This document shows positions 1 through 10,316 of a stretch of DNA of 11,340 nucleotides, piece after piece (positions within the stretch are counted from its first letter, which is position 1; every line of letters starts with the position of its first letter). The position numbers and the translations under genes are program-made. The stretch comes from Pseudomonadota bacterium. GTDB taxonomy: Bacteria; Pseudomonadota; Alphaproteobacteria; Acetobacterales; Acetobacteraceae. The stretch is from contig JAJZEG010000052.1 of the NCBI GenBank assembly GCA_021828605.1, forward strand, positions 1 to 11,340, in the 5' to 3' direction. Below the pieces are notes generated by a model that saw only the letters and a list, made by a program, of their open reading frames with translations, did no database searches and was not told the DNA's origin.

Positions 1-1003
1 CGTGGGCGAAGCCTTCGGCATCGGTGCCGCCATGGGATTTGACCACCACGCCATTCAGCCCGAGCAGCACCGCGCCGTTATAGCGCCGCGGATCGAGCCA
101 TTCGCGCAGGCGCCGGAGGCCGGGGCGGGCGAGCAGATAGGCCAGCCGGGCGGCGAGCGAGGCGCTGAACACCCGGCGGAGCAGATCACTCGCCAGTTTC
201 AGCGCACCCTCGCCGGTTTTCAGGGCGATATTGCCGGTAAACCCATCGGTGACGATGACATCGACCGTGCCGGCCGCGATGTCGTGCCCTTCGACGAAGC
301 CGTGAAATTGGCCGCTGAGCGGGCTGACGCGCAGGGCTTCGGCGGCGCGTTTGCGCATCTCGTCGCCCTTCATTTCCTCCGAGCCGACACTGAGCAGGCC
401 GATGGTGGGCGCGGGCAGGCCGAGCACGGTGCGCGCGAAGGCTTCGCCCATGACCGCGAACTCGATCAGGTTGCGGGCATCGCAGGCCATGTTGGCGCCG
501 AGATCGAGCATCACCACGTCGCCGCGCGCGGACGGGCCGATGGCGGCCATGGCCGGGCGATCAATGCCGTTCATGGTTTTCAGCACGATTTTGGTCAAAG
601 CGAGCATCGCGCCGGTATTGCCTGCGGAAATGATCCCGGCGGCTTCGCCGCTGGCCACCGAATCGATGGCGCGGCGCATCGAGGCGTCACGCAGGCGCAA
701 GGCGGCGGTGGGTTTGAGATCGTCGGCGATGCGCTCGCTGGTCGGGCGGATCACCGCCCTGCCCTGCAACCGCTTGGCGCGGCGCAGCGGCTCCGCCAAG
801 GCGGCCTCGTCGCCGAAAATCAGGAATCGAGCCTTGGGATGGCGTTCGGCGGCGATGTTGAGCCCGTCAATCACGCAGTCAGGAGCGTAGTCGCCACCCA
901 TGGCGTCGACGGCCAGCAGGCAGGCGCTCAAATCCGGCGCGGAGCTGGAATCCGGCGCGGAGCGAGGGTCCTGCTTGGGACGGGTCGGGAGATTATCCGA
1001 CAC
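1..1003 (-). CDS. plsX: Phosphate acyltransferase PlsX (3' end off the window)
   Basis: PlsX converts acyl-ACP and orthophosphate to acyl-phosphate, the donor for PlsY in phosphatidic acid synthesis. It is a peripheral membrane enzyme. The translation from the GTG at 1003 shows the family signature DAMGGDYAP (about residues 33-41), SAGNTGAMLALTK, DLGANMACDARNL and TDGFTGNIALKTGEG. About 334 codons are visible and the reading frame is open at the left edge, so only a short C-terminal part is missing. The GTG is preceded by GGAG at a normal distance. This start gives about 30 residues before the Rossmann-like core, slightly longer than usual. It lies 33 bp downstream of rpmF on the same strand, the standard rpmF-plsX arrangement that links ribosome and membrane-lipid synthesis. 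The long plus-strand frame opposite it is a high-GC shadow. Confidence 0.95.
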   Translation of the reverse strand, partial: MSDNLPTRPKQDPRSAPDSSSAPDLSACLLAVDAMGGDYAPDCVIDGLNIAAERHPKARFLIFGDEAALAEPLRRAKRLQGRAVIRPTSERIADDLKPTAALRLRDASMRRAIDSVASGEAAGIISAGNTGAMLALTKIVLKTMNGIDRPAMAAIGPSARGDVVMLDLGANMACDARNLIEFAVMGEAFARTVLGLPAPTIGLLSVGSEEMKGDEMRKRAAEALRVSPLSGQFHGFVEGHDIAAGTVDVIVTDGFTGNIALKTGEGALKLASDLLRRVFSASLAARLAYLLARPGLRRLREWLDPRRYNGAVLLGLNGVVVKSHGGTDAEGFAH

Positions 1004-1036
1004 GGGAGACTCCAGGACCAGAGATGGCGGGGACGA

Positions 1037-1240
1037 TCAGATGCGGACCGCGCCCTTGAGCGGCTTGCCAGCCTCGACGACTTCGCGGCTGTCATAATGG
1101 CCGCAATGGCCACAGACATGGTGCGGACGCTTCAGCTCGCCGCAATTACCGCATTCGGCATGGGCTTGCGGGGTGAGCGCCTGATGGCTGCGCCGCATGC
1201 CGCGACGGGAGGGAGAGGTTTTTCGCTTCGGAACAGCCAT
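1037..1240 (-). CDS. rpmF: Large ribosomal subunit protein bL32
   Basis: This is a 67-aa basic protein beginning [20 protein letters not shown], the typical bL32 N-terminus of a 50S subunit protein. It keeps the zinc-ribbon Cys pairs C30-x2-C33 and C43-x2-C46 (CGNC ... CGHC), so it is the zinc-binding (C+) form. Length and both ends fit the family. A weak GAGA-type ribosome binding site precedes the ATG. It is the upstream gene of a two-gene unit with plsX, 33 bp apart. Confidence 0.97.
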
Positions 1241-1386
1241 GATTGGTCTCGTTTGTTGTCAGAGTGAGAAGAAGTTCGAAGGGTGACGCGGCGCGGCACA
1301 GGGCCGAGCCGTGTAGAGGGGCGGAGGTAGCAGAGGCGGGGGGAATGGGCAAGATGTGGGGTGTCGCTCCGTGCTCCGATGATGCG

Positions 1387-2013
1387 CTACCGGGGCGGAC
1401 CGCCGGGGCCGCCGGGGCCGCCGGGACCGCCTGGACCGCCAGGGCCAGCAGGACCACCGGGACCGCGTGGACCGCCGGGGCCATTTGGACCGCCTGGACC
1501 GGGACGCCCCCTGGGACGCAAACCGGGTCCGGCGCCGGGAGGGGCGAAATTAGGGCGCCAATGGGGGATGGGGCCGCCGGGACGCGGATGCGGGGCGTCA
1601 GGGTAAAAGCCGGGGCGCGGGAGGCGCAGACCTGGAAAATATTGGCCCGGCGGCGGCGGTGGTGGTGCGCCATAAGGCGGGGCTGGCGGCAGCGGCACGC
1701 CGGGCGGCGGTGGCGGCGGTGGGGCGTTGTAATAGCGGTAATAATAGGAGGGATAATAATACCACATGGTATATTGGTCGTAGAGCGGTCGGGAATAATA
1801 ACGCTGGTAATAAGTTGGCGGTGCCCAGAAGCCGATATTATAGCCCGGTGAACCGAAACTGAAATTTAGGGAGACCGCTTGCGCGTGGGCGACTGGGGTG
1901 GTGACGGCCAGAGTCGCCACGCCCAAGGTGGCGATACCGAGGCTGGTCAGTAGGCTGAAAGCGGGAATGCCGAGGGTGCGCGCGAATGGTCGGTGCTTGG
2001 GTGACAGCGTCAT
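1387..2013 (-). CDS. Secreted Tyr/Pro-rich protein with collagen-like GGP tail
   Basis: This 208-aa protein has no function I recognise. It has a clear Sec signal peptide: a basic N-region (KHRPFAR), a long hydrophobic core, and TPVAHA with a likely cleavage after residue 44. Next come a Tyr/Trp-rich segment (about 65-95, with YYQRYYSRP and MWYYYPSYYYRYYN), two proline runs (PPPPPPPG and PPPPPPG, about 97-122), and a C-terminus (about 160-208) made of GGP/GPG triplets such as GGPGGPGGPGGPGG. AGGAG sits 7 nt before the ATG, which supports the start. Low-complexity Tyr/Pro/Gly proteins with signal peptides are common in alphaproteobacteria and are thought to be periplasmic or envelope-associated. 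The plus strand also reads as Gly-Pro-Pro repeats here, but has no signal peptide or ribosome binding site. It is divergent from the peptide island at 2126. Confidence 0.75.
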   Translation of the reverse strand: MTLSPKHRPFARTLGIPAFSLLTSLGIATLGVATLAVTTPVAHAQAVSLNFSFGSPGYNIGFWAPPTYYQRYYSRPLYDQYTMWYYYPSYYYRYYNAPPPPPPPGVPLPPAPPYGAPPPPPPGQYFPGLRLPRPGFYPDAPHPRPGGPIPHWRPNFAPPGAGPGLRPRGRPGPGGPNGPGGPRGPGGPAGPGGPGGPGGPGGPGGPPR

Positions 2014-2138
2014 GATCCGTCTCCTGTCATTGATCAGAGAGAAGTATGGTCGGTGATCATGGTTTCAATGTGACGGGGTGCTGGCCGCATACGACCAAGG
2101 GGGTTTTTGCGTTTCGCGCGCGGATCCGCAGAAATCGC

Positions 2139-2190
2139 TTGACCGCTCGGTGATTTTAGATGACATTAACCTCAGCGCGTCATTAACTTG
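2139..2190 (+). promoter_or_regulatory. Conserved upstream region of module 1 (putative promoter/operator)
   Basis: A -35-like TTGACC is at 2139-2144. A -10 at 17 bp spacing (GACATT) is poor. The most distinctive element is a direct repeat, GACATTAAC (2162-2170) and GTCATTAAC (2179-2187), with starts 17 bp apart. The block is almost unchanged in the second module, as expected for a shared control site. The promoter assignment and any regulator are inference. Confidence 0.4.
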
Positions 2191-2233
2191 TTTCGATAGA
2201 TTATTCTGCGTTTATTTTTGATTCGATTTGGCA

Positions 2234-2536
2234 ATGTCGGATGGATTAACGTTTGAAGCTGTATTCCGTGCTGAATCGGTGGATGCGCGCTGGGGTGCCT
2301 GGCTTGGCGTGATGCGGATTGTCGCGGCGATTGCGGATTGGGCGATGGCGTCGCGGATTATTGCTCCGCACCGGCCTGAGGCGATAGCGACGCGGGCGGA
2401 TGCGATTTTCCTGTTGACACGCGCGAGAGCGAAATTATTGGATCGGGAGGCGTTTTGGCGTCTGGGGTCCGGTGGTGCCGAAGCCATGACGGCTCATCAT
2501 GGCATAACTGAGAATAAGGATTTGGAACATGCGTGA
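2234..2536 (+). CDS. Unknown ~100-aa protein of microcin module 1
   Basis: I do not recognise this 100-aa family. The protein is probably soluble and helical, with no signal peptide or membrane segment. It begins MSDGLTFEAVFRAE, has Trp-containing amphipathic stretches (ARWGAWLGVMRIVAAIADW) and ends in a charged tail (NKDLEHA). I chose ATG 2234, because the upstream TTG at 2228 adds only two residues. No good Shine-Dalgarno sequence is visible. Its stop overlaps the start of the precursor gene in the 8-nt string ATGCGTGA, so translation is probably coupled. A paralogue precedes the second precursor (4579-4878). The two differ by one whole codon and about 13 amino-acid replacements against about 3 silent changes. 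A role in peptide maturation, chaperoning or regulation is possible but unproven. Confidence 0.65.
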   Translation: MSDGLTFEAVFRAESVDARWGAWLGVMRIVAAIADWAMASRIIAPHRPEAIATRADAIFLLTRARAKLLDREAFWRLGSGGAEAMTAHHGITENKDLEHA

Positions 2537-2879
2537 ATTAGTATCTGGCGAGATTGCGTTTGTGAGTGGGGGAGCAAACAACCATCTGAGCATAAGTAGT
2601 AATAACTTGGGCAATGGAACGAATTACGGTCTCGGAACTAATAATAACGGTATTGGCGCCAACATTCCAATTTCTAGTAATAATGCAGGCGGTGGCGGTG
2701 GACATATTAATCGAGGAGCGGCGGCGGCGTGCATAGTTGCTGGACCAGGTGCGCTATATGTCGCTGGCACGGTAGATATTGCGAGTGGTGGGACTGCAAT
2801 TCCTTTGAGCGTAGCAGCACTTGCATTGAGCGGCGTCGTGGGAACAACTCTAGATTGCACTTCGGCTTTTAGACGTTAA
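2529..2879 (+). CDS. Double-glycine leader microcin-like precursor 1
   Basis: This is a 116-aa precursor. Residues 1-15 (MRELVSGEIAFVSGG) match the class II microcin/bacteriocin leader. Relative to the cleavage site they give L at -12, E at -8, I at -7, V at -4 and GG at -2/-1, as recognised by peptidase-containing ABC exporters. The predicted mature part (16-116) starts with an Asn/Gly/Ser-rich stretch (about 16-60, including GGGGG), continues with a small-residue hydrophobic region carrying the motif VAGPGA, and ends LDCTSAFRR. It has two Cys (68 and 110) that could form a disulfide. AAGGA at 2516-2520 lies 8 nt before the ATG. Known members of this class are exported antibacterial or signalling peptides. 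Here the activity is inferred from the leader and architecture only. Confidence 0.8.
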   Translation: MRELVSGEIAFVSGGANNHLSISSNNLGNGTNYGLGTNNNGIGANIPISSNNAGGGGGHINRGAAAACIVAGPGALYVAGTVDIASGGTAIPLSVAALALSGVVGTTLDCTSAFRR

Positions 2880-2895
2880 CTAGGACGATGCTGTG

Positions 2896-2945
2896 CAGAC
2901 GGCAGACTTGACCGCATTTTTGGAATTTTTCTGGCCTGCCGCCTG
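2896..2945 (+). terminator. Possible weak hairpin after precursor 1
   Basis: CAGACGGCAG (2896-2905) can pair with CTGCCGCCTG (2936-2945), 10 bp with one G-T pair, across a 30-nt T-rich loop. Only TTT follows. It could be a weak terminator or attenuator between precursor 1 and the AT-rich gene, but the long loop makes it uncertain. Confidence 0.25.
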
Positions 2946-2975
2946 TTTCACTGTAAATCCCTGTGCGAGTAAAAA

Positions 2976-3260
2976 ATGTATAATCCAAAGACAGTAAACA
3001 AAAATAACAATAAAATTAGAATGTTGAGTTTCTTTATAATTATTTATTGGACTTCGGTTGTTATTCTCGAGCTTTTTCAAATACACTATGGAGATATTCC
3101 ATTTATGATGTACACGCAGTTTATTGGGTTTATTGACATATATATAAATTGTTATTATAAACTTAGAGATAAACAAATTGATGATATAAGAGATGTTCGA
3201 ATTATTTTATATATATTTGGACTTTTTGGAATTATTTTAGATTTAAGTATCTTCTCATAA
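2976..3260 (+). CDS. Small AT-rich membrane protein, candidate immunity protein
   Basis: This 94-aa protein belongs to no family I recognise. After a polar, Asn/Lys-rich N-terminus (residues 1-15) it has three likely membrane segments: about 17-34 (FFIIIYWTSVVILELF), 41-60 (around MMYTQFIGFIDIYI) and 74-93 (VRIILYIFGLFGIILDL). A charged loop, KLRDKQIDDIRD, separates the last two. GAG lies 6 nt before the ATG. Small multi-span proteins directly downstream of a class II microcin or bacteriocin gene are usually its immunity protein, so that is the best guess. Base composition is extreme: 13 of 60 bases are G or C at 3001-3060 and 11 of 60 at 3121-3180, far below the neighbours. This points to transfer from a low-GC source. 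Confidence 0.6.
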   Translation: MYNPKTVNKNNNKIRMLSFFIIIYWTSVVILELFQIHYGDIPFMMYTQFIGFIDIYINCYYKLRDKQIDDIRDVRIILYIFGLFGIILDLSIFS

Positions 3261-3280
3261 ACTGATTCAGGTAAATTATC

Positions 3281-4384
3281 ATGGGATTTCTATTTCCCAT
3301 TAATGTGAAAGTCCGGCCATCCCACTGGTTTATTGGAATCCTCGCTGAGATGAACGGTGTGTTCACGGGTTGGAGTGATGGGTCTTATGATTGGGCAGCT
3401 CAATATGATGATTTTTTGTATGTGCCTTCGGATCTGCCGTCGTTTGATGACGATGTTTTTAAGACAACGCTGAGCAAGTGCGTTTTGGAAGAGTTGTTGG
3501 AAATATTTTTGTGCCTGATCAGCGGCGAGAATAAGATTATTCAGGACTATTTGGCTGGTGTGAAATTTGCCTTTGTTATCGGCTATCCACGCAGTGGCGG
3601 TAGTTATCTGACCAAGGAGTTGTTTCGGTCCATCGGGATTGATCACGTGCGCGTTTCCGAAGCGCTGGCGCATGACGGGTTCCCCGATATCGTCGAAAAC
3701 TGGTTCGGATCAAAGCCTGGGGAGCCTTATTTCTATTTGCAAGAATCGATGTTGCAGCTTGCCGAATTTCTGGTGCTGTCGAAAAATTATTTCAGTGAAA
3801 GACAGAGAGCTGAGCAAGGCAGACCAATCATCATTCCGAAAAAAATGCATAAACTTATCAACTGGGCGGGGAGTTTGAGATCGCTGCTTGGTGGTGATCT
3901 GGCGGATTATATCGTCACGATCCGTAACCCGTTGCCAACCGCCATCTCGATTTATGAAAAAAGCTTTGGCATGCCTGCGGACGGTAAATTTCCGGCTCTT
4001 GGACCGCGCAGCGCGATTGAAAAATGGATTCTCAATGATCTTACGTCGTTGGGCTTTAGCGCACATGCCAGTGCTGCTCTGGATTATTTCGAAGCAGTTC
4101 AGATCAGTTGGACGCGATTTCATACCAAACTGGCGGATTCCGGGTTGTTTGCCGGTGATGCCAACGATGTCACGGTGTTGCCATATGACCCTGTTGCCTA
4201 CCAAGAATTTTTGCGCCGGCGTTATGCCGAAGCCGGAAATCCAAATGGGCCAGAACCGCTGCTTGTTCACGACAAATATCGGCGTTTTCCAGAATGGTCT
4301 GATCGTGCCGATGGGGCCATTGCCTCGATGAGATCGATTTGGCGTGATCTGGGCCTGCGTTTTCCGCATGTCACAAACTTTTGA
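3281..4384 (+). CDS. Sulfotransferase-like protein
   Basis: This is a 367-aa protein with the two PAPS-binding elements of the sulfotransferase superfamily. The 5'-phosphosulfate loop is GYPRSGGSYLTKEL (about 101-114). The 3'-phosphate element is IVTIRNPLPTAISIYEKS (about 211-228), with candidate R215 and S223. Such enzymes move sulfate from PAPS to a hydroxyl or amine of a peptide, sugar or lipid. The ~95 residues before the P-loop resemble no domain I know and may confer substrate binding. The start at 3281 has only a weak AGG upstream. The gene lies 20 bp after the AT-rich membrane protein and between two double-glycine peptide units, so a precursor peptide is a candidate substrate, as in RaxST acting on RaxX. 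That link is inference. Sulfation of a glycan or another metabolite is the alternative. Confidence 0.75.
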   Translation: MGFLFPINVKVRPSHWFIGILAEMNGVFTGWSDGSYDWAAQYDDFLYVPSDLPSFDDDVFKTTLSKCVLEELLEIFLCLISGENKIIQDYLAGVKFAFVIGYPRSGGSYLTKELFRSIGIDHVRVSEALAHDGFPDIVENWFGSKPGEPYFYLQESMLQLAEFLVLSKNYFSERQRAEQGRPIIIPKKMHKLINWAGSLRSLLGGDLADYIVTIRNPLPTAISIYEKSFGMPADGKFPALGPRSAIEKWILNDLTSLGFSAHASAALDYFEAVQISWTRFHTKLADSGLFAGDANDVTVLPYDPVAYQEFLRRRYAEAGNPNGPEPLLVHDKYRRFPEWSDRADGAIASMRSIWRDLGLRFPHVTNF

Positions 4385-4419
4385 AAATTGGGGGCTGTTA
4401 TCTGGAGTTTTCCCCCTTC

Positions 4420-4436
4420 GGCGCCTTTTTGGCGCG
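4420..4436. terminator. Short GC hairpin after the sulfotransferase gene
   Basis: GCGCC-TTTTT-GGCGC forms a perfect 5-bp stem with a five-base loop just downstream of the sulfotransferase stop. No T-tract follows on the plus strand, so its role as a terminator in either direction is weakly supported. Confidence 0.3.
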
Positions 4437-4437
4437 G

Positions 4438-4481
4438 TTAGGCCACCATCGCGTCGCGCTTGAATGAGACGCGCACTTCTG
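4438..4481 (-). pseudogene. Possible C-terminal relic of a minus-strand gene
   Basis: On the minus strand this stretch reads AEVRVSFKRDAMVA followed by a stop (TAA at 4438-4440), in GC-rich host-like codons. It abuts exactly the left boundary of the second duplicated module at 4482, beyond which no related coding is seen. It resembles a C-terminal beta strand, such as an ABC-ATPase TOBE end, but is too short to assign. It may be the stump of a gene cut by the duplication, or chance. Confidence 0.2.
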
Positions 4482-4494
4482 CCGCAGAAATCGC

Positions 4495-4546
4495 TTGACC
4501 GCTCGGTGATTTTAGATGACATTAACCTCAGCGCGTCATTAATTTG
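4495..4546 (+). promoter_or_regulatory. Conserved upstream region of module 2 (putative promoter/operator)
   Basis: TTGACC at 4495-4500 and the direct repeat GACATTAAC (4518-4526) / GTCATTAAT (4535-4543) are conserved from module 1. The same 17-bp periodicity suggests a common regulator and coordinated expression. No strong -10 hexamer is seen. Confidence 0.4.
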
Positions 4547-4578
4547 TTTCGATAGATTATTTTCGATTGGATTTGGCA

Positions 4579-4878
4579 ATGTCGGATGGATTGGCGTTTG
4601 AAGCTGTATTCCGTGCTGAATCGGTGGATGCGCGCTGGGGTGCGTGGCTTGGCGTGATGTGGATTGTCGCGGCGATTGCGGATTGGACGATCACGCGGAT
4701 TATTGCTCCGCACCGGCCTGAGGCGATAGCGTCGCGGGCGGATGCGATTTTCCTGTTGACAGGCGCGACAACGAAATTGTTGGATCGGGAGGCGTTTTGG
4801 CGTCTGGGGTCCGGTGGTGCCGAAGCCATGACGGCTTTTCATGGCATATCAGAGAGTGAGGATTTGGAACATGCGTGA
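4579..4878 (+). CDS. Unknown ~100-aa protein of microcin module 2
   Basis: This 99-aa paralogue of the protein at 2234-2536 has the same start context (ATG after TTGGCA) and the same 8-nt ATGCGTGA overlap with the following precursor. Differences from copy 1 are a one-codon deletion after DW (AMAS becomes TIT) and replacements including R28W, T-to-A at residue 6 and several in the C-terminal third (HHGITENK to FHGISESE). The first 27 residues are almost unchanged. The frame is intact with no stops, but replacements outnumber silent changes, so it is either under weak constraint or diversifying. Function unknown. Confidence 0.65.
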   Translation: MSDGLAFEAVFRAESVDARWGAWLGVMWIVAAIADWTITRIIAPHRPEAIASRADAIFLLTGATTKLLDREAFWRLGSGGAEAMTAFHGISESEDLEHA

Positions 4879-5203
4879 ATTGGTATCTGGAGAGATTGAG
4901 TTCGTAAGTGGTGGGTTAGCCACAAAGGCTCAAACGGGCTCAAATTCCACAAATAGCGGTGGCGGTGGATCAAATGCGAGTGGTGGTAATTATAGATTTT
5001 GCGGAATTACTCAATCGACCTTTTTTCAAGATATGTTCGCCATTGTTGGAGGACTTGCCGGCGGCGCTGTCGCTGGACCAGGTGGAGCGATAGTTGGAGG
5101 GGGCATCGGTGGAATGGTCGGCCAATCCGTGAACTATTACTCCGAAGGTCTGCATGCCACGCCCAACTCATACGTGATCGCGCATTTGGGTCGAGCAGCC
5201 TAA
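4871..5203 (+). CDS. Double-glycine leader microcin-like precursor 2
   Basis: This is a 110-aa precursor. I chose the ATG at 4871 over the in-frame ATG at 4841, because 4871 begins the MREL leader, has GAGGA (4858-4862) 8 nt upstream and matches copy 1. The leader MRELVSGEIEFVSGG has L-12, E-8, I-7, V-4 and GG at the cleavage site. The mature part has a Ser/Thr/Asn/Gly spacer (about 16-40), NYRFCGIT with the only Cys (44), and a strongly hydrophobic Gly/Ala helix (about 55-85: AIVGGLAGGAVAGPGG then AIVGGGIGGMVG) rich in GxxxG. It ends with NYYSEG and a polar tail. This is a classical pore-forming class II bacteriocin layout. NYYSEG is the most plausible Tyr-sulfation site in the two peptides, which is speculation. 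Confidence 0.82.
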   Translation: MRELVSGEIEFVSGGLATKAQTGSNSTNSGGGGSNASGGNYRFCGITQSTFFQDMFAIVGGLAGGAVAGPGGAIVGGGIGGMVGQSVNYYSEGLHATPNSYVIAHLGRAA

Positions 5204-5212
5204 AAAATAAAA

Positions 5213-5255
5213 TCTGCTCTTGCTTTCTGTGTTAATGGAGCAAGAGCAGAATTTT
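5213..5255 (+). terminator. Stem-loop after precursor 2
   Basis: TCTGCTCTTGCT (5213-5224) pairs perfectly with AGCAAGAGCAGA (5239-5250), a 12-bp stem with a 14-nt loop followed by ATTTT. It starts 9 bases after the precursor stop and ends 25 bases before the 56-aa ORF. It could terminate most transcripts after the peptide gene or act as an attenuator or processing site that sets the peptide:immunity ratio. Confidence 0.6.
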
Positions 5256-5275
5256 AGACCTAAGGAAACAAGACA

Positions 5276-5446
5276 ATGAGCTTATCAGGAAAAACTGCAA
5301 AGACTTGTGTGTTTAGCTTTATTGGTATGGTCCTGGCAGGTAAAATATTTGGAATTTTAGATTTAGATTTAAGCGCCGCAATATTTTTTGTCGTCGTCAG
5401 TGTCATTTTATACATAGCTGCACTCATAATTCAAAAGTTAAACTAA
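5276..5446 (+). CDS. 56-aa membrane protein, candidate immunity protein
   Basis: This short ORF begins MSLSGKTAKTCVFSFIG. It has two predicted membrane helices, about 11-28 (CVFSFIGMVLAGKIFGIL) and 34-52 (AAIFFVVVSVILYIAALII), and ends QKLN. AAGGA at 5262-5266, 9 nt before the ATG, is a good ribosome binding site. It lies 72 bp after precursor 2, the place the 94-aa membrane protein holds after precursor 1. The two are not obviously similar, which fits immunity proteins matched to different peptides. Codons are A/T-rich compared with the flanking operons. Confidence 0.6.
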   Translation: MSLSGKTAKTCVFSFIGMVLAGKIFGILDLDLSAAIFFVVVSVILYIAALIIQKLN

Positions 5447-5485
5447 TTAATAGAAGTAATAGCTAAAATGATACGAATCAGTACT

Positions 5486-5697
5486 TGACCTTGCCCCGTG
5501 GTTTTCATCCAGGAATGATTAGAGTCCGGCCCCTGGAAGGACGGACAGATGAAACGGTCACGATTTTCGGAAGAGCAGATCATTGGGGTGCTGAGGGAGG
5601 CGGAAGCTGGGGCGAGTGCTGCTGTGCTTGCCCGCAAGCATGGGGTTTCCGAGGCGACCCTCTACAACTGGAAAGCCACGTATGGCGGGCTGGAGGG
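5486..5697 (+). mobile_element. Left-end remnant of an IS3-family insertion sequence
   Basis: The segment starts with TGACCTTGCCCCGTGG, which resembles terminal repeats of IS3-family (IS407-like) elements, and runs into the orfA start 60 bp later. Coding similarity to OrfA stops near 5697. No orfB, and no inverted copy of the end sequence (CCACGGGGCAAGGTCA), is present to the right, so the element is truncated and cannot move by itself. Confidence 0.65.
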
Positions 5698-5716
5698 TAA
5701 TCCCCCCTGCGATTAA
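5549..5716 (+). pseudogene. Truncated IS3-family transposase OrfA
   Basis: The frame from ATG 5549 reads MKRSRFSEEQIIGVLREAEA and then a helix-turn-helix, LARKHGVSEATLYNWKATYG, followed by GLEG. This is the N-terminal DNA-binding half of an IS3/IS407-type OrfA. After about 50 codons the typical YGG(L/M)E...EAKRL continuation is lost and the frame ends at a TAA after only 55 residues, against roughly 85-100 in intact OrfA. The programmed-frameshift region and OrfB are missing. Confidence 0.75.
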
Positions 5717-5827: not shown

Positions 5828-6559
5828 TTATTCCATGAACCAGCCGTGGCTGACTACCATCGACTGGCCGGTTAGGGCGTTGGTGGGGAAGCCTGCGAAA
5901 TAGAGCACGGCGCTGGCGACGTCATCGACGGTGGTGAATTCGCCATCGACGGTGTCTTTGAGCATGACGTTGCGGATCACCTCATCCTCGGTGCGCACGA
6001 AGCCGGGGCAGACCACGTTGGCGCGCACGCCATGTTCGGCGCCCTCTTTGGCGAGCACTTTGCACAGGCCGATCAGGCCATGTTTGGCGGTGACGTATGG
6101 CGCTTTGAGTTTGCTCGCTTCTTTGGAATGGACCGAGCCGATATAGACCACCGCGCCGCTTTTTTGGGCGTACATATATTTCAGGCAGGCGCGGGTGGTG
6201 AGGAAGGCGCCGTCGAGATGGATGGCGAGGAGTTTTTTCCAGTCGGCGAATGGGAAATCGACTAGGGGCTTGACGATCTGGATCCCGGCATTGCTGACCA
6301 GCAGGTCGATTTTGCCGAATTTTTTGAAGGCGGCATCGACGCCGTCTTGGACTTGCTGTTCGTCAGCCACATCCATCGCGATGGCGAAGGCTTCGGGGCC
6401 GGATTTGCCAATCTCGGCGGCGGTGGCCTGGGCGGCATCAAGATTGAGGTCGGCGATCACGGCGTGGCCGCCTTCGCGGGCGAATTGTTCGGCGATGGCA
6501 CGGCCAATGCCGCTGGCGGCACCGGTGATAATGCCAACTTTTCCGTCAAAACGAGCCAT
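5828..6559 (-). CDS. bdhA: 3-hydroxybutyrate dehydrogenase (SDR family)
   Basis: This 243-aa short-chain dehydrogenase probably interconverts (R)-3-hydroxybutyrate and acetoacetate with NAD+ in the cytosol. It has the cofactor motif TGAASGIG (12-19), an acidic residue at the end of beta-2 (IADLN, D37) that favours NAD(H), NAG (90-92), Ser142 in GSVHSKEAS, and Tyr155/Lys159 in YVTAKHG. The stretch [20 protein letters not shown] and the later CPGFVRT are typical of bacterial 3-hydroxybutyrate dehydrogenases. The position often held by the catalytic Asn reads His (AIHLDG). AAGGA lies upstream of the ATG. It is last in a co-directional set with acetoacetate decarboxylase and a patatin, which supports a ketone-body/PHB role. 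Another hydroxyacyl substrate is possible. Confidence 0.82.
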
Positions 6560-6598: not shown

Positions 6599-6740
6599 GC
6601 GCCGGGTTGGTCGGCGGCGGCGCGCCAAATATCAGGCGCCGGGTTGGTCGGCGGCGGCGCGCCAAATATCAGGCGCCGGGTTGGTCGGCGGCGGCGCGCC
6701 AAATATCAGGCGCCGGGTTGGTCGGCGGCGGCGCGCCAAA
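6599..6740. repeat. 37-bp tandem repeat (about 3.8 units)
   Basis: Four head-to-tail units begin at 6599, 6636, 6673 and 6710. The last is cut after 31 bases. The unit begins GCGCCGGGTTGGTCGG, contains GGCGGCGGCGCGCC and ends AAATATCAG. The complete units are identical by eye. The array fills the gap between the acetoacetate decarboxylase stop (6750) and the dehydrogenase start (6559). Because 37 is not a multiple of three it produces spurious Gly/Ala/Arg ORFs. Each unit can fold through GGCGC...GCGCC. Confidence 0.95.
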
Positions 6741-6749
6741 CATAAAACT

Positions 6750-8672: not shown

Positions 8673-8860
8673 TAAATGGAACCTTTTGGTAATGATAACG
8701 GACGCGATGGCCATTATGTGAGGCGGGGTTCAGAATCGGTCAAGTTGCATTGCAGCAGAACACGGAGAGTTGCTTGGGTTACGGGTGAGGAGTTCGGCTT
8801 TAATATCTGATTTTAAATAAAATTTATTGAAATGACAGATTTGTGAAGCGGCGCGGTGGG

Positions 8861-9796
8861 TTAGAAATGGCTCCAGCCGAGGCGGGTGGGTAAAGCGGGT
8901 GCGGGGTTATCGAGGAGCGAAATGCCGGGGGTGCCTTCGGCGAAATGACCGATGCAGGTGAGCGGGATCGGGGCGCAGGCGGTGCGGAGTAATTCGGCGT
9001 GATCGGGGTGGGCTGCGACAATCAGTTCGTAATCATCGCCGCCGGTGAGACGCGGGATCAGCCAGTCGGGGCCGAGGCTGGCGGCTTGCGGCGAGGCGGG
9101 GACGCAGGCTGCGTGAATATGCGCGTGCAGCGCGGAGGACTGGCAGAGATGATTGAGATCCTGCAACAGCCCGTCCGAGACATCGATTGCGGCATGGATC
9201 CAGGGGTGAAGGGGTAGGAGCAGGCGTGGTTCGGGTAGCAGGCGTCGGGTGCGGAAAAAGCCGGTCGGGTCATTGAGGTCGCCGCGCGCGGCGGCGAGGC
9301 CGAGGGCGGCGTCGCCGATGGTGCCGGTGACGAAAATCGCATCGCCTGGTTTGGCGCCGTTGCGGCGCCAGGCGGTGCCCGGTTCGATGGTGCCGAGCAT
9401 GGTGACGCTGCAGGCGAGCGGGCCCGGGGTTGAGGTGCTGTCCCCGCCGATCAGGGTGACCGTGTAGGTCGCCTGGTCGGCGGCGAGGCCATCCGCGAAG
9501 GATTGCAGCCAGCCATCGGGCAGATCGGGGCGGAGCGCGGTGGTGAGCAGATAATAGAGCGGCGTTGCGCCCATCGCCGCGAGATCGGAGAGGTTGCGGC
9601 GGAGTAGTTTGCGGGCGATCAGATCGGGCGGGTCATCGGGCAGGAAATGGATGGTTTCGATCATTTGATCGACGGTGATCACTTGCTCGCGCGCGGCATC
9701 GGGGCGCAGCACGGCGGCGTCGTCGGTGAGGCCGAGACCGGGTGGGGCGGCGAGCGGGGCGAATAAACGGGCGATGCGCTCGAATTCGCCGCTCAT
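8861..9796 (-). CDS. thiL: Thiamine-monophosphate kinase
   Basis: ThiL phosphorylates thiamine monophosphate to thiamine pyrophosphate with ATP, the last step of cofactor synthesis. The 311-aa protein carries the AIR-synthase-like motifs GLTDDAAVL (22-30), TVDQMIETIHF (41-51), IGGDSTSTP (116-124), IDVSDGLLQDL (204-214) and TGGDDYEL (251-258), which hold the metal/ATP-binding aspartates. I chose the ATG at 9796 (MSGEFERIARLFAPLA) because it matches the family N-terminus. The longer frame upstream overlaps the nusB coding region. It begins 4 bp after the nusB stop, so it is the last gene of the ribB-ribH-nusB-thiL operon. Confidence 0.95.
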   Translation of the reverse strand: MSGEFERIARLFAPLAAPPGLGLTDDAAVLRPDAAREQVITVDQMIETIHFLPDDPPDLIARKLLRRNLSDLAAMGATPLYYLLTTALRPDLPDGWLQSFADGLAADQATYTVTLIGGDSTSTPGPLACSVTMLGTIEPGTAWRRNGAKPGDAIFVTGTIGDAALGLAAARGDLNDPTGFFRTRRLLPEPRLLLPLHPWIHAAIDVSDGLLQDLNHLCQSSALHAHIHAACVPASPQAASLGPDWLIPRLTGGDDYELIVAAHPDHAELLRTACAPIPLTCIGHFAEGTPGISLLDNPAPALPTRLGWSHF

Positions 9797-9800
9797 GCTG

Positions 9801-10316
9801 TCACGGCGTGGGGCTGGTTTGGAAATCGGCCGGGCGGAGGGTGTGGGCGATGCGGTCGAGCATGGCGTTGGCGAGTTGCACCGCGTCATCGGCGAAGAAA
9901 CCATGGGCGATGTCGAGATATTCGTTGATCACCACGCGGGCGGGCGGGCCATCGCTCATCCGCAATTCGGCGGCGGCGGCGCGCAGCAAAGCGCGCAGCA
10001 CCGGGTCGAGCCGGGGCATCGGCCAGGATTCGGGCAGGTTGGCGGCGATCAGCGGGTCGATCTGGTCCTGTTCGGTGGTGGCGCGGCGGACGATGTTGGC
10101 GAACAGAGAAGCGTTGGCGTCCGGGCTGAGGCCGTCATCGATGCGGGTGGCGATGGTGATCGCTTGGGTGCCCGCTGGCGGGTGCGGCGGTTTGGTCAGG
10201 CGGTGGCGGATGAATTGATCGATCACGGTTTCGGCGGAGTCGCTGCTTTGTTCGCTTTGATACAAGGCTTGTACGGCGGCGACGCGGGCCAGGGTGCGCG
10301 GGCGGGCGGTGACCAT
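9801..10316 (-). CDS. nusB: Transcription antitermination factor NusB
   Basis: This is a 171-aa all-helical RNA-binding factor that joins NusE/S10 on boxA RNA in rRNA antitermination. The N-terminal RTLARVAAVQALYQSEQSS is the characteristic NusB arginine-rich start. The C-terminal part has LDPVLRALLRAAAAELR and VVINEYLDIAHGFFADD, matching the family core and its C-terminal helices. The start is only 2 bp downstream of the ribH stop and the gene ends 4 bp before thiL, so it is surely cotranscribed. Confidence 0.95.
   Translation of the reverse strand: MVTARPRTLARVAAVQALYQSEQSSDSAETVIDQFIRHRLTKPPHPPAGTQAITIATRIDDGLSPDANASLFANIVRRATTEQDQIDPLIAANLPESWPMPRLDPVLRALLRAAAAELRMSDGPPARVVINEYLDIAHGFFADDAVQLANAMLDRIAHTLRPADFQTSPTP

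Follow-up and report, generated by a model that had tools for sequence, protein, structure and literature searches.

Two tandem peptide-precursor cassettes, each behind an in-frame remnant of an exporter operon, are probably displaced parts of a microcin-like system in an Acidiphilium relative

We analyzed a stretch of 11,340 nucleotides (nt) from an Acetobacteraceae genome (contig JAJZEG010000052.1, assembly GCA_021828605.1), here called the window, which carries an island of two direct-repeat modules (2126-3260 and 4482-5446). Each module consists of a control region, an open reading frame (ORF) of ~100 codons, a double-glycine peptide precursor, and a small hydrophobic protein (Table 1). 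The original prediction, made from the sequence alone, had placed two tandem modules here, and the repeat blocks and ORF coordinates bear this out. We found that blocks 2126-2205/4482-4561, 2212-2346/4557-4691, and 2352-2572/4694-4914 are 99%, 95%, and 92% identical between the modules, respectively. The likeness spans the control region, the ~100-codon ORF, and the leader of the precursor, and it ends at the GG codons. In the same alignment, the mature parts and the small proteins of the two modules differ.

The leader MRELVSGEI(A/E)FVSGG, with L-12, E-8, I-7, V-4, and GG, had been read correctly, as had the lengths of the mature parts. We derived an IUPAC pattern from these leaders themselves; it had two matches in the window and none in any of 200 shuffles. 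The precursors of verified class II microcins are 75 to 120 amino acids (aa) long and have an N-terminal leader ending in GG or GA (PMC9746304). Both window precursors have such a leader, and at 116 and 110 aa they fall inside this range, contrary to the earlier view that they are long for the class.

Table 1. Features of the window and of the related locus L001, each in its own coordinates (columns: feature, position, strand, description)
Control region, module 1	2126..2227	+	A+T-rich, G+C content (GC) 0.40; 99% identity to module 2 over 80 nt; presumed to have been the exporter operon's promoter
Scar ORF 1, 102 aa	2228..2536	+	In-frame joint of the HlyD-type fusion gene start with the C39-ABC exporter gene end (~68 codons, counting the stop)
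Hairpin (7 bp), module 1	2483..2503	+	In exporter tail, 25 nt 5' of precursor ATG
Precursor 1, 116 aa	2529..2879	+	Leader 2529-2573, mature part 101 aa; ATG lies before the stop of scar ORF 1 (overlap)
Small hydrophobic protein 1, 94 aa	2976..3260	+	Two predicted transmembrane (TM) segments; GC 0.235; presumed immunity protein
Sulfotransferase-like protein, 367 aa	3281..4384	+	Accompanies cassettes in L001 and L002
Control region, module 2	4482..4566	+	From repeat blocks and alignment with module 1
Scar ORF 2, 103 aa	4567..4878	+	Fusion as in scar ORF 1
Hairpin, module 2	4825..4845	+	Paired in the alignment; outside the minimum-energy fold of this copy
Precursor 2, 110 aa	4871..5203	+	Leader 4871-4915, mature part 95 aa, Gly-rich; a longer reading from ATG 4841 exists
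Small hydrophobic protein 2, 56 aa	5276..5446	+	Two predicted TM segments; GC 0.333; presumed immunity protein
IS3-type transposase orfA fragment	5549..5716	+	PF01527 63.3 bits; NCBIfam IS3 profile positions 1-42 of 369, below cut-off; right edge of island
L001 fusion gene	397-1731		HlyD-type, 444 aa; PF13437 62.5 bits
L001 exporter gene	1728-3932		C39 peptidase ABC, 734 aa; PF03412 114 bits, PF00664, PF00005
L001 precursor 1	ATG 3925		Starts inside the end of the exporter gene
L001 small TM protein	4294-4479		Two predicted TM segments
L001 truncated exporter tail	4574-4888		Followed by second precursor, hydrophobic protein, and sulfotransferase-like gene

We scanned a genome collection with the module 1 ORF and confirmed two loci among 88 pattern matches: L001, in a proteobacterial metagenome-assembled genome (MAG), and L002, in the MAG of Acidiphilium sp. 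37-60-79 (G002). In L001, the leader family of the window stands directly behind genes for a C39 peptidase ATP-binding cassette (ABC) exporter and an HlyD-type fusion protein. This supports the claim that the window encodes double-glycine, class II microcin-like precursors with small membrane proteins. The second L001 precursor, behind a truncated exporter tail, has the window's leader MRELVSGEIEFVSGG. The L001 exporter showed up to 57.5% identity to plasmid-borne peptidase-domain ABC transporters. We use "CvaB-type" for a C39-ABC exporter with an HlyD-type fusion protein, and the window is assigned as microcin-like, not as microcin.

The ~100-codon ORFs of the window align with both exporter-operon genes, each of which is intact in L001. 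In module 1, blastn placed 2262-2325 on L001 410-473 (start of the fusion gene) and 2327-2539 on L001 3729-3935 (exporter end); in module 2, 4672-4882 matched L001 3729-3936 (exporter end). Against the L001 fusion protein, the ORF fronts had protein scores of 79 (module 1) and 71 (module 2), and the maxima of 2000 shuffles were 50 and 40. Scores against the fusion proteins of two family members (G155 and G198) were also above all shuffles, by a smaller margin than with L001. Relative to L001, ~3.3 kb is absent between the two joined points. At the level of sequence, these alignments show that in each module the front of a fusion-protein gene runs in frame into the end of an exporter gene, with an overlapping double-glycine precursor and a small hydrophobic protein behind it. 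Read this way, the ~100-aa ORFs are in-frame scars of an exporter operon, which the original prediction overlooked. It had reported no peptidase-containing ABC transporter or membrane-fusion gene in the window; none is intact, but remnants of both, the last ~68 exporter codons and the start of the fusion gene, lie inside the ~100-aa ORFs. The joint is common to both modules, so the deletion probably preceded the duplication, or else one copy replaced the other. A displaced pair with a fragment of its upstream parent gene is found in both places, as a tail behind the intact exporter in L001 and as scars with no parent gene in view in the window.

L002 contains six cassettes (c1 to c6) with exporter fragments whose left boundaries vary, and it has the same neighbors as L001. 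Cassette c6 (12337-12987) lies inside a sulfotransferase-like gene whose middle is lost, and its leader ends in GA; the joint is a short stretch common to the sulfotransferase-like gene and the exporter tail. Cassette c3, which has a different leader type, stands behind a fusion of the sulfotransferase-like gene with a longer exporter piece. Downstream of the precursors we found hydrophobic proteins (c2, c4, and c5), a CAAX-protease-like membrane protein (c3; 8841-9671; PF02517 22.6 bits, cut-off 22.4), an aspartyl protease at the place expected for an immunity gene (c1; 4294-5286; PF13650, 34 bits), and a YbjQ protein (c6). CAAX proteases count among the immunity genes of the blp locus (PMC4860687).

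We compared nine cassettes in 36 pairs: two from the window, two from L001, and five from L002, with c3 excluded for its differing leader. Mean pairwise nucleotide identity was 0.75 in the tail (last 90 nt), 0.74 in the leader, and 0.54 in the 150 nt after GG; shuffled sequences gave 0.52 for this last stretch, in a control with one start off by one base. Identity after GG was at chance level in 32 of the 36 pairs and exceeded 0.58 in 4, with a maximum of 0.97 (L001 c2 with L002 c5). The low 90-nt values of c2 and c6 of L002 arise because they share with the exporter end a block of just 52 nt, immediately before the overlap. Net changes in tail length preserve the frame in the four unbroken cassettes that have one (+6, +3, -69, and -66 nt), which amount to at most three independent events, since modules 1 and 2 have a common ancestry. 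The frame-breaking change (-37 nt) occurs only in c2, whose precursor has an early stop. The frame-keeping changes would fit a need to translate into the precursor.

The scar and the leader differ in how they have changed between modules 1 and 2. Among 95 scar codons, we counted 3 synonymous and 10 nonsynonymous changes (nonsynonymous divergence [dN], 0.053; synonymous divergence [dS], 0.059). In the leader, 7 of 15 codons have changed, 6 of them synonymously and 1 nonsynonymously. The codons are few (15), yet the contrast is clear. That the leader has diverged more than the scar suggests a recombination joint near the scar end, with leader and payload moving together.

The exporter tail also contains a hairpin. 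Across the nine cassettes, 62 of 62 cells were paired, with both-side changes at 2 of the 7 pairs, and sliding the partner by 1 to 3 columns left 21 to 71% of cells paired. The shuffle controls gave 1/500 for paired cells, 1/500 for the covariation score, 44/500 for double-change pairs, and 500/500 for further pair types. For all seven copies tested, single-sequence folding energy was no better than that of shuffles, and three of the copies had a minimum-energy fold without the hairpin. A single event may account for each of the two double changes. We regard the signal as real but modest; the hairpin might act on translation or RNA stability, or it might belong to the recombination joint.

The expectation that homologues of the precursors keep the GG leader held in P0003 to P0007; one L002 cassette, with GA, is the exception. 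P0003 is 57% identical to precursor 2 over the full length but has a different leader and linker. P0004 to P0007 have the leader in common with precursor 2 and little beyond (expectation values [E], 0.8 for P0006 and 1.0 for P0007). Searched against the protein collection, precursor 1 recovered itself alone among 95 candidates; P0007, reached via precursor 2, was 43% identical to precursor 1 by alignment. A search of that collection for the exporter tail gave 3565 matches, and the 120 listed were mostly ordinary ABC transporter pieces on short contigs. Among the matches listed were short exporter-tail ORFs on other contigs (P0008, P0010, P0012, P0014, P0017, and P0018) and a fusion of the window's type (P0116). 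P0004 and P0010 each lie on a contig of 1327 bases, which suggests that a single contig may carry both a tail and a precursor.

In the order of G002, the closest relative of the window in the genome collection, 129 of 395 genomes had a C39 match at E <= 1e-12. We examined 60 C39 loci from 58 genomes, picked nonrandomly from the upper part of the list. In the stretch examined, none of the 60 had a short exporter-tail copy, and none had a GG precursor, by motif, within 600 nt behind the exporter; L001, run alongside, was positive in both cases. In L094 and L111, the contig ends at the exporter or within 150 bases behind it, so these loci could not have shown tails; the remaining loci had at least 2.8 kb of sequence behind the exporter. 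Three apparent tails of ~211 aa proved to be parts of second, longer ABC transporters and were dropped. The exporter tail was matched in 2 of 299 family genomes, G002 and, with a full-length exporter, G155. G155 and G198 have intact fusion/exporter pairs and no such tails. Near the G155 exporter operon (L033), there is a Gly-rich GG precursor (12065-12289), as well as two proteins (9052-10239 and 12554-14782 [-]) that we take to be Hint-domain-like. Plasmid records gave no DNA match to the island. The one match in viral contigs, in which a 230-kb contig matched over 17 residues at its end, was treated as chance.

G002, which is 77 to 84% identical to the window flanks, was the top match when 397 family genomes were searched with the right flank. 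Between its counterparts of the flanking genes, we found other genes but no cassette, and two contig ends at this position share ~60 bases. L002, and L001 with the same neighbors, have their cassettes at a different genomic place from the window's. The TM segments of the small proteins were predicted by Kyte-Doolittle. Small protein 1 had no Pfam or NCBIfam match, and Pfam gave small protein 2 only a sub-threshold match, to HupE_UreJ (14.3 bits, cut-off 23). The GC of both genes, set against 0.60 to 0.68 in three flanking stretches, suggests a foreign origin.

The sulfotransferase-like gene that lies between the modules has a 79% identical copy in G001 and pieces in G002, and it was found in 4 of 397 family genomes overall. 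In G258, it adjoins a gene whose product is presumably an FhaC-like transporter. The protein is 33.5% identical to an Acidithiobacillus caldus protein annotated as a sulfotransferase and has no Pfam match of its own. This A. caldus relative matched Sulfotransfer_3 weakly (15.7 bits, cut-off 27), and the part of its record that we examined has no annotated bacteriocin gene. A profile search of solved structures returned four matches (E, 0.3 to 0.6), none of them a sulfotransferase.

A sigma-70 scan of 2000-5600 gave 8 sites, not above chance (shuffle mean, 5.9), and listed none in the module 1 control region on the plus strand. A search with 2126-2330, run without a positive control, found no match in the genomes of seven relatives, and the window had no Rfam match at gathering cut-offs. 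Within the control region, 2162-2187 contains a direct repeat, GACATTAAC-N8-GTCATTAAC, also present in module 2 with one base altered; it is a possible regulator site. Outside the island, 1387-2013 (-), near rpmF, encodes a protein with a collagen-like Gly-Pro-Pro tail (9-nt period); it has relatives in G002 and G155, and the G002 one is without the long repeat. A 37-nt tandem repeat of about four near-perfect copies lies between two metabolic genes (6599-6743). The short-chain dehydrogenase at 5828-6559 (-), of 243 aa, has 17 residues fewer, in frame, than its G002 counterpart (260 aa, L058).

Taken together, these data make it probable, as regards anatomy and cassette origin, that the island consists of two precursor/immunity cassettes displaced from a CvaB-type microcin-like system in an Acidiphilium relative. 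According to this model, cassettes would be gained, duplicated, and swapped by recombination, with the exporter 3' end and the leader as the shared arm. The scar would supply the promoter and the Shine-Dalgarno sequence to the precursor. With the operon front fused to the cassette, expression may have been retained, and an exporter would be required in trans. A C39 exporter encoded elsewhere would export the precursors and cleave them behind GG, and relatives without the cognate small membrane (immunity) protein would be the targets of the mature Gly/Ala-rich peptides. That the window peptides are exported and antibacterial, with the small proteins giving immunity, is our inference.

A wider reading, which we put forward tentatively, joins these observations in one cassette-exchange system for secreted antibacterial peptides. 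Its recombination arm would be the exporter 3' end, the conserved hairpin, and the leader. A new precursor/immunity pair would land behind the exporter and displace its predecessor downstream, along with a tail copy, so that the array would preserve earlier weapons as a heritable record. In the window, the operon front would have been spliced on, and the displaced weapons would still be expressed without the exporter.

Several points weigh against the displaced-cassette model. The mature parts matched no microcin family in searches of Pfam, NCBIfam, and curated families. Two of the six L002 cassettes (c1 and c6) are not followed by a small membrane protein, the expected immunity type, and two (c1 and c2) have early stops in the leader. 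L001 and L002 come from MAGs, in which repeats can be misassembled. The dN of the scar is close to its dS, so the scar peptide bears no sign of constraint or selection, and the exporter tails of L001 c2 and L002 c5 have stops further upstream, so translation of the whole tail is not general. The original prediction had assigned export to genes elsewhere; this is not assured, because G002 has six cassettes yet no C39 match above the cut-off (best, 20.5 bits against 22) in a MAG that may be incomplete. Finally, plain duplication could also explain the kinship of the cassettes, without strain-to-strain exchange.

Two alternatives accept the same anatomy and differ on present function. In the first, which we regard as a serious possibility though short of probable, the cassettes are an immunity memory or silent reserve, retained mainly for immunity or as spares for an intact exporter, and the peptides are not exported from here. 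The six L002 cassettes, in a MAG that lacks an above-threshold C39 match, are consistent with this. Orphan modules of contact-dependent inhibition (CDI) systems have been explained likewise (PMC4927057), and the exporter of the pneumococcal blp locus is often broken, with full-length blpB and blpA in 23.5% of genomes (PMC4860687). However, a pure immunity store would need neither the protein-level conservation of the leader nor two open precursors, and each module has retained its own upstream region.

In the second, which we consider unlikely, the island is the decayed remains of a microcin operon after deletion and insertion sequence activity and has no present function. The exporter genes are indeed down to scraps, a transposase fragment adjoins the island, two L002 precursors are broken, and change in the scar looks neutral. 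In contrast, the window's two precursors and two small proteins all have open frames, and the changes in the leader are synonymous in 6 of 7 codons. All nine cassettes, two broken ones included, have the hairpin paired, and the tail length changes preserve the frame in the unbroken cassettes.

A third alternative, that the precursors are double-glycine peptides with no antibacterial role, such as signals or Cdz-type surface aggregates, seems more doubtful still. The mature parts are Gly-rich, precursor 2 has three GxxxGxxxG motifs, and P0003 is weakly like glycine-zipper Pfam models, below cut-offs. But precursor 1 has no such motif, and the count in precursor 2 is not above that of shuffled composition (p = 0.12); we therefore rejected the extended glycine zipper as a defining trait. 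Toxin/immunity pairs would also account better than signals for mature parts that differ and that each have a small protein of their own. We consider it very improbable that the ~100-aa ORFs represent genuine genes (regulators, for example) that were duplicated along with the precursors: the frame is long and open in both copies, but its two halves align to the two exporter-operon genes, dN is near dS, and there is no family match above cut-off.

If the displaced-cassette model is true, double-glycine weapons of Gram-negative bacteria diversify by a change of payload, with the exporter tail and leader constant, and unrelated mature peptides are thereby paired with one leader. We found no description of exporter-tail cassettes by title or abstract in the open PMC literature, and the accessible part of PMC11494933 has nothing on them. 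Gene finders seek microcins beside an exporter; these cassettes have only scraps of one and would be missed or filed as junk. The exporter tail offers a sequence handle for further peptide/immunity pairs in acidophile metagenomes.

Class II microcin clusters, such as CvaA/CvaB/CvaC and McbABCI of Moraxella (PMC2761928), comprise a C39 exporter, a fusion protein, a precursor directly behind the exporter, and a small immunity protein. L001 has every one of these components, its immunity role being presumed. In the window, by comparison, the exporter and fusion genes are down to a scar of ~100 codons, the precursor/small-protein set occurs twice, and the mature parts match no curated family searched.

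Orphan CDI/Rhs modules are displaced 3' ends retained as a fossil, an immunity store, or a reserve (PMC4927057). Like orphan cdiA-CT/cdiI and rhs modules, the island has tandem displaced toxin/immunity-like pairs, a piece of the upstream gene usable as a recombination arm, and transposase scraps nearby. Unlike them, it carries an exporter 3' end and leader in place of part of a large toxin carrier, and the window retains the operon front as well. The parent in those systems is a CdiA or Rhs carrier protein, whereas here it is a C39 ABC exporter. The pneumococcal blp locus (PMC4860687) likewise has many double-glycine peptides with a shared leader, recombination between them, an exporter that is often broken, and CAAX proteases and membrane proteins as immunity genes. 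It is, however, Gram-positive and quorum regulated, and its possible recombination site is a short transposase-derived repeat, not a copy of the exporter tail. Because the carried piece is an exporter tail, the window system belongs to neither CDI/Rhs nor blp. Caulobacter Cdz (PMC5380434) is also an alphaproteobacterial system of small, Gly-rich exported peptides with a small TM immunity protein, to which the putative export and immunity of the window would correspond. CdzC and CdzD (86 and 84 aa) have extended glycine zippers, whereas zippers in the window precursors are absent or not above composition.

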